Source: an uncultured Monoglobus sp. (GTDB lineage Bacteria; Bacillota; Clostridia; Monoglobales; Monoglobaceae). From it: a stretch of DNA of 47,900 bases. The notes beneath the pieces were generated by a model. It was not told the origin of the DNA. It saw nothing but the letters and a program-made list of their open reading frames with translations, and searched no databases. A program made the position numbers and the translations under genes. Location of the stretch: assembly GCA_947630505.1 (NCBI GenBank), contig CANRHV010000013.1, forward strand, positions 1 to 47,900. The letters are read 5' to 3'. Shown here in pieces: positions 46,565-47,669 of the stretch. Every line of letters begins with the position of its first letter. Positions within the stretch are counted from its first letter, which is position 1.

Positions 46565-46593
46565 TTGACATACATCTTTCGTTAGGTTATAAT
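46565..46593 (+). promoter_or_regulatory. Consensus promoter of the SCP2/H1-tail gene
   Basis: TTGACA (46565-46570), 17 nt, TATAAT (46588-46593). The leader is about 40 nt, with AAAGGTG before the ATG. Such a strong promoter suggests high expression. Confidence 0.85.
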
Positions 46594-46639
46594 TTATTTA
46601 AAAATTAAACAAATCTTGTAAAAAGAAAGGTGATTTTAA

Positions 46640-47164
46640 ATGACTTTCGAACAGGCAGTCGGCAGAGTTCAGGCGATTATGGAGAACGCCAGCGTTGAGA
46701 AAATCGGAAACGTGGCGGTACAGATCCAGTTCACCAACAGCGACTGCAAAGGTATTATGTACATCTCGACCAAAACAGGCGAGCTTGACGTTCAGGGTTA
46801 TGATTATAATGACCGCGACGCGGCTGTTGAGCTGGTTTACGGCGACCTGAGCAAGGTGCTGACCGGAAAGCTGAGCGCCGCAAACGCGATAGCGAGAGGC
46901 GACATTGTTGTTTCCGGCAATCCCGACGCTTTCCTGGCTCTCGCGGGCTGCGCGAAAAAGGCTCCCGCCAAGAAGCCCGCGGCAAAAAAAGCTCCCGCAA
47001 AAAAAGCGCCCGCAAAGAAGGCCGAGCCCAAAAAAGCGGAGACAAAAAAGGCTGAGGTAAAAAAGGCCGAGCCCGCTCCCGCTTCCAAAAAGACCGCGGA
47101 GAAAAAGCCCGCCGCAAAAAAGACGGCGGCCAAACCCGCGGCAGCAAAAAAGACAACAAAATAA
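46640..47164 (+). CDS. SCP2 sterol-carrier-like domain with Lys/Ala/Pro-rich tail
   Basis: 174 residues. Residues 1-103 fit an SCP2 lipid-binding fold: AVQIQFTNSD, the beta-sheet MYISTKTGELDV, and GDLSKVLTGKLSAANAIARG (the helix pair typical of SCP2), then IVVSGN. Residues 104-174 are almost only Lys, Ala, Pro with some Glu/Thr, in repeats such as PAKKA, like histone H1 or bacterial H1-like (Hc1/AlgR3) tails. The tail is disordered and strongly positive, so nucleic-acid or membrane-surface binding is possible. The gene stands alone with a consensus promoter and a strong terminator. I know of no described function for this fusion. Confidence 0.85.
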   Translation: MTFEQAVGRVQAIMENASVEKIGNVAVQIQFTNSDCKGIMYISTKTGELDVQGYDYNDRDAAVELVYGDLSKVLTGKLSAANAIARGDIVVSGNPDAFLALAGCAKKAPAKKPAAKKAPAKKAPAKKAEPKKAETKKAEVKKAEPAPASKKTAEKKPAAKKTAAKPAAAKKTTK

Positions 47165-47183
47165 CAGCTTAAATAAAGCAAGG

Positions 47184-47208
47184 CCCGCGGATAAAACCGC
47201 GGGTTTTT
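47184..47208 (+). terminator. Terminator of the SCP2/H1-tail gene
   Basis: Perfect 7-bp stem CCCGCGG/CCGCGGG (47184-47190, 47197-47203), loop ATAAAA, then T5. Confidence 0.92.
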
Positions 47209-47216
47209 CGCGTATT

Positions 47217-47262: not shown

Positions 47263-47535
47263 TCAACTGTTCTTCAGCTTAATGATCCGCACACTGTTGG
47301 ACAGGGGTTCAAATTCCTCCCCCGTCACCTTCGCCTCGTTCGGGCGGACAACCGTCTCTTGCTCCTCCTCCGCTCTATCATCATACTCGCTGATAAGCAG
47401 AGAGATCTCGCGCTTCATCTCCGCGATACGGCTATGCGTGCCGGTTCTCAGCGCGTCCGACTCGCGGCGAATATCCTCGGCGGCGTTTCCGTCAAACCCG
47501 CGCCTGCGGAATAACTCCGAAACAGCAGCTCTCAT
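47263..47535 (-). CDS. Small coiled-coil protein of unknown function
   Basis: 90 residues, charged. Residues 20-60 (RRESDALRTGTHSRIAEMKR and on) look helical with heptad-like spacing. The C-terminal third is acidic then ends SNSVRIIKLKNS. There is no membrane segment or known motif. TAGGAGTG is 6 nt before the ATG, and a consensus promoter lies about 105 bp upstream, which together argue that the gene is real. Confidence 0.7.
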   Translation of the reverse strand: MRAAVSELFRRRGFDGNAAEDIRRESDALRTGTHSRIAEMKREISLLISEYDDRAEEEQETVVRPNEAKVTGEEFEPLSNSVRIIKLKNS

Positions 47536-47640: not shown

Positions 47641-47669
47641 ATTATAACACAGAAAACAATATTTGTCAA
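47641..47669 (-). promoter_or_regulatory. Consensus promoter of the small coiled-coil gene
   Basis: On the minus strand TTGACA (47664-47669), 17 nt, TATAAT (47641-47646) with TGT extended -10. The leader of about 100 nt holds a small ATGTTT/AAACAT hairpin. Confidence 0.8.

Follow-up and report, generated by a model that had tools for sequence, protein, structure and literature searches.

A lipid-binding N-terminal domain followed by a DNA-binding tail of the PAKKA type is an established design, represented by MLDS and PhaF. MLDS, the major lipid-droplet protein of Rhodococcus jostii RHA1, has four PAKKA motifs in its C-terminus; this part binds DNA regardless of its sequence, while a Lys-to-Glu version does not (PMC5504291). 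The isolated KPAA-type tails of PhaF (PMC3574117) and AlgP (PMC9239181) also bind DNA, and both PhaF and AlgP position granules. We analysed a 47,900-nucleotide stretch of DNA (the window) from an uncultured Monoglobus sp., whose genome (G000) is a 2.70-Mb MAG that is 98% complete. One gene in the window encodes a protein, hereafter the SCP2-tail protein, in which a predicted SCP2 domain is followed by a Lys/Ala/Pro-rich tail. Like MLDS, it combines an N-terminal domain, in its case a putative lipid-targeting one, with a C-terminal PAKKA-rich Lys tail; however, the N-domain of MLDS is apolipoprotein-like and serves triacylglycerol droplets, whereas that of the SCP2-tail protein is of the SCP2 type. 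PhaF of Pseudomonas putida, which has a tail-less counterpart (PhaI), likewise pairs an N-domain, in its case one that binds a lipid polymer, with a disordered H1-like tail, but this N-domain consists of an amphipathic phasin helix bearing a leucine zipper. AlgP of Pseudomonas aeruginosa resembles it in the disordered KPAA-type Lys/Ala/Pro C-terminal tail and differs in its helical N-domain and its polyphosphate granules, the SCP2-tail genomes showing no association with PPK1. With the SCP2 family (PF02036, comprising SCP2, the SCP2-like domain of MFE-2 and the UbiJ N-domain) the protein shares the profile match and the predicted fold; it is set apart by the motif YDYxD and, in the main tailed clade, by Cys36, and the homologues examined outside the class Clostridia carry no polylysine tail. 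Nothing relevant on a bacterial protein with SCP2 and an H1-like tail was found in the open-access literature searched. The sequence-only reading had held such a protein to be new, a claim that has to be divided: the two-part design is known from MLDS and PhaF, while its occurrence on the SCP2 fold in Clostridia appears to be undescribed.

The ORF (46640-47164, + strand) begins with ATG and encodes 174 aa. It lies downstream of feoA/feoB as a transcription unit on its own, and the 142-bp gap between feoB and the gene contains the gene's own promoter (Table 1). Both the perfect consensus promoter and the strong terminator described from the sequence at the outset were recovered, the hairpin of the latter having a folding energy of -21.1 kcal/mol (z = -3.6) with a T run on its 3' side. 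Promoters matching at least 11 of the 12 consensus positions were found for 31 of the 47 tailed genes, where shuffled sequences would give 0.3, versus 3 of the 16 tail-less ones, a difference (Fisher p=0.0014) that is indicative only, the species being related. Codon adaptation of the SCP2 domain is 0.74, and the ribosomal-protein genes of the same genome score about 0.61-0.76; several metabolic genes within the window score as high as the domain. Taking promoter and codon adaptation together, the protein is likely to be abundant. The feoAB operon was discarded as a functional clue, because an upstream feoB is confined to the genus and its close relatives, and in other families the gene has different neighbours; no conserved lipid-gene neighbourhood was seen around the homologues compared. 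Beyond the terminator, on the opposite strand, lies a 90-aa ORF without a confident family, whose weak eIF-4B match is probably due to chance and which has a second perfect promoter of its own.

Table 1. Coordinates of the features at and next to the SCP2-tail gene (positions in the window).
Feature	Position	Strand	Evidence
Sigma-A promoter TTGACA-17-TATAAT, 12/12 consensus	46565..46593	+	Motif match; kept consensus-like in relatives
Ribosome-binding site AAAGGTGA	46627..46634	+	Sequence; conserved in genus relatives
SCP2 domain (predicted), aa 1-104	46640..46951	+	Pfam PF02036, AlphaFold2, Foldseek, VIA, purifying selection
Lys/Ala/Pro-rich tail (predicted disordered), aa 105-174, net +21, 5-aa repeats	46952..47161	+	Composition, low pLDDT, lysine conservation
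Stop codon TAA of the 174-aa ORF	47162..47164	+	ORF call
Intrinsic terminator, GC-rich hairpin and T run	47180..47209	+	Folding energy
90-aa ORF	47263..47535	-	Conserved in several genus relatives
Promoter of the 90-aa ORF, 12/12 consensus, extended -10	47669..47641	-	

The N-terminal part of the protein was assigned to the SCP2 family by profile and by predicted structure, in agreement with what had been read from the sequence. PF02036 matches aa 28-103 (E=5.1e-6; 27.2 bits versus a gathering cut-off of 21.3) and was matched by 10 out of 10 divergent domain sequences, with a best E of 2.9e-12. An AlphaFold2 model for which nine close sequences (the window protein and eight relatives) were the input gave a pLDDT of about 73-86 for the domain and about 34-43 for the tail, with no residue at or above 90. 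Foldseek comparison with the PDB returned SCP2 domains as all of the top 18 matches (probability at most 0.99, E at least 4e-3), and VIA-align placed UbiJ-SCP2 at the top (Z 6.9), together with alkylsulfatase C-domains and human and insect SCP2 (Z 4.5-6.9). These scores are moderate and agree with the profile match; they predict an SCP2 alpha/beta fold for the N-domain, and the tail is predicted to be disordered. A PHROG match (E 0.003) was set aside as weak, covering the end of the domain and the low-complexity tail. The subfamily signature is YDYxD, and tail-less members keep the same domain signature. Almost all members of the main tailed clade have Cys36 (46745-46747), the cysteine of a D/E-C motif, whereas the tail-less relatives have other residues there.

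The tail (aa 105-174, 70 aa) consists of 37% K, 33% A and 13% P, has no Arg and carries a net charge of +21. A degenerate repeat of 15 nt (5 aa) underlies it, and it contains two exact PAKKA motifs and one PAKKP, in line with the PAKKA-like repeats first noted in it. Across members, tails are made of Lys, Ala and Pro with almost no Arg, are hydrophilic, and conserve charge rather than sequence; most lack an obvious amphipathic or hydrophobic anchor. The composition is also that of HC2 and the Burkholderia-type H1-like family, but the models of both match far below their cut-offs (HC2, PF07382, 19.4 versus 40; hist_H1_lk_Burk, NF038053, 32.6 versus 80), so that membership of the whole protein in either family was rejected and its H1 likeness is, by these profiles, one of composition. 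The earlier comparison with DNA-binding H1-like tails thus stands for composition and falls for family membership.

Pairwise comparisons within the genus gave dN/dS values of near 0-0.05 for the domain (0.09 in one pair that is very close and differs at few sites) and, among the five closest relatives, of 0.06-0.17 for the tail, beyond which the alignment of the repeat tails is uncertain. These ratios indicate that the SCP2 domain is under very strong purifying selection, far stronger than that on the tail. In the gap-free tail columns of five close genomes, none of 23 lysines had changed versus 8 of 36 other residues (Fisher p=0.018), and 10 of the 23 lysine codons showed synonymous AAA/AAG variation. 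Tail length between close relatives changes by 5-aa units. From these substitution patterns, the charge pattern of the tail is judged to be kept by selection.

The fusion is real and conserved beyond chance, with the same architecture in every close homologue and in most of the divergent ones. A homologue was present in 20 of the 60 relatives searched. The other 11 genomes of the genus include 10 with a homologue, the single miss (G007) being only 74% complete, and all 11 proteins, that of the window genome included, are tailed. An assembly chimera was rejected, as G008, a genome in one contig, also has the fusion, and so do nine further genus relatives. In a Clostridia sample, the domain was matched in 68 of 393 genomes; of 64 distinct proteins parsed, 49 had the tail and 15 lacked it, showing that the tail is widespread. 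One clade of 36 Clostridia sequences (support 100/97), in which domains are as little as 26% identical, consists of tailed proteins only, provided that L019, with an acidic extension after its Lys-rich tail, is included among them. Since the homologues examined outside the class end at the domain, the tail is derived. It was probably gained more than once: the tree, which is based on about 105 columns and has weak deep forks, needs five tail changes (at least two forced by well-supported branches) versus 13.5 for shuffled labels. No relatives were found among the viral contigs or the plasmids searched for a viral or plasmid origin.

Polylysine tails bind RNA, polyphosphate and anionic membranes as well as DNA. 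Given that the tails of MLDS, PhaF and AlgP bind DNA, we infer that DNA is the leading candidate for the polyanion bound by the tail, with RNA, membranes and polyphosphate as alternatives. Composition, lysine conservation and these tested analogues make H1-like DNA binding plausible. Of the matches to KK[APST][APST]AKK in a whole-genome scan, five fell in the tail; the other two fell in topoisomerase I and FtsK/SpoIIIE, in each case at the N-terminus. The sharing of KKxxAKK with DNA-handling proteins points to DNA, although it is only suggestive because the reversed control pattern gave one match in the same scan. Both of these proteins (L130, G000:C48:15594; L124, G000:C2:69612) have Lys/Ala-rich N-terminal extensions that carry the motif. 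The gene is patchy, being missing from several nearly complete relatives, and this argues against a core nucleoid role for its product. HU is encoded separately in the genome.

We prefer a model in which the SCP2-tail protein is an SCP2 ligand carrier of the cytosol, anchored to the nucleoid through its H1-like polycation tail, and we favour it tentatively, as falling a little short of an even chance. The product of this single gene would be cytosolic and probably well expressed. Its SCP2 domain may hold an apolar ligand, such as an acyl or isoprenoid lipid, or make contact with a lipid surface, and its polylysine tail, unfolded when free, would grip DNA electrostatically and without sequence specificity, this DNA most likely being the nucleoid. 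Domain and tail together could then place a lipid carrier on the nucleoid or tether a lipid surface to it. By analogy, the best model is thus an MLDS/PhaF-like way of working with an N-domain unrelated to that of MLDS or PhaF. In those proteins, lipid-DNA bridging serves storage bodies; here the same two-part layout is found on an unrelated and well-studied lipid-carrier fold, in many gut Clostridia, mostly with near-consensus promoters, and in a focal genome without a PHA synthase match. If the tail binds DNA, the protein would be a widespread nucleoid component with a small-molecule pocket.

The main rival to the nucleoid model is a membrane-docked lipid carrier, whose tail would dock on anionic phospholipid head groups at the inner membrane face while the SCP2 domain moved lipid, DNA being irrelevant. 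We consider it unlikely, even though a tail of +21 would bind anionic membranes too. The top VIA match, UbiJ-SCP2, speaks for it, as this domain works in membrane-lipid (ubiquinone) biosynthesis (PMC9499169). However, the hydrophilic and predicted disordered tails would mostly offer no obvious anchor for a membrane, and KKxxAKK marks DNA-handling proteins in the genome, although FtsK is also a membrane protein. Also unlikely is a general nucleic-acid protein, with the tail on DNA or on RNA and ribosomes and an SCP2 domain that has lost lipid binding and acts as an oligomerising or scaffold module. This would fit the H1-like tail with its charge kept rather than its sequence, the codon adaptation near that of ribosomal proteins and the lack of a lipid-gene context, but not the domain dN/dS, which is far tighter than that of the tail, nor the persistence of tail-less members with the same domain signature. 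Because of this strong constraint and these tail-less members, the SCP2 domain probably has a function of its own.

An organiser of storage granules that coats them and tethers them to the nucleoid, as PhaF does for PHA, MLDS for triacylglycerol droplets and AlgP for polyphosphate, is very unlikely in our estimate. The layout is the same as in MLDS and PhaF, the SCP2-tail genome encodes PPK1, and lipid-droplet-like bodies have been reported in gut bacteria (PMC10019568). Nevertheless, PhaC_N had no match in the 98%-complete genome, whereas the control matched in Caulobacter, and a phasin-like role on PHA granules is therefore disfavoured. So is an AlgP-like role on polyphosphate granules, as PPK1, although present in this genome, is not enriched across the class (outside the genus, 15 of 33 tailed genomes versus 133 of 351 others, p=0.46). 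For WS/DGAT, neither the genome nor the control genomes gave a match. Least probable of all, and already disfavoured, is a tail that is a functionless low-complexity by-product of repeat slippage. The degenerate 15-nt repeat and the 5-aa steps in length between close relatives are what slippage would leave, but the lysines are fixed while their codons drift synonymously, charge is kept across members with only 26-38% domain identity, and the tail was probably gained more than once.

An extension of the preferred model, in which the proteins would form an undescribed class of nucleoid-bound lipid carriers in gut Clostridia, is that DNA binding responds to the loading of ligand through the pocket and the region of the invariant Cys36. 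We regard this as quite unlikely; if true, lipid or redox state would be coupled to nucleoid organisation.

Tailed and tail-less SCP2 paralogues coexist in two genomes of one family, G404 and G268 (L055, L056, L062, L070 and L087), and recall the PhaF/PhaI pair. In family f61, three tail-less SCP2 genes (L063, L065 and L066) lie shortly downstream of a putative glutamine synthetase gene. Several tails are unusual in form: L056 (G268) has an exceptionally long tail of Ala, Pro and Lys with some bases masked, L053 (G158) has a 159-aa Ala/Lys/Glu tail that is probably helical, and G053 encodes two variants, L019 and L051, in the first of which acidic repeats of about 40 aa come after a Lys-rich stretch.
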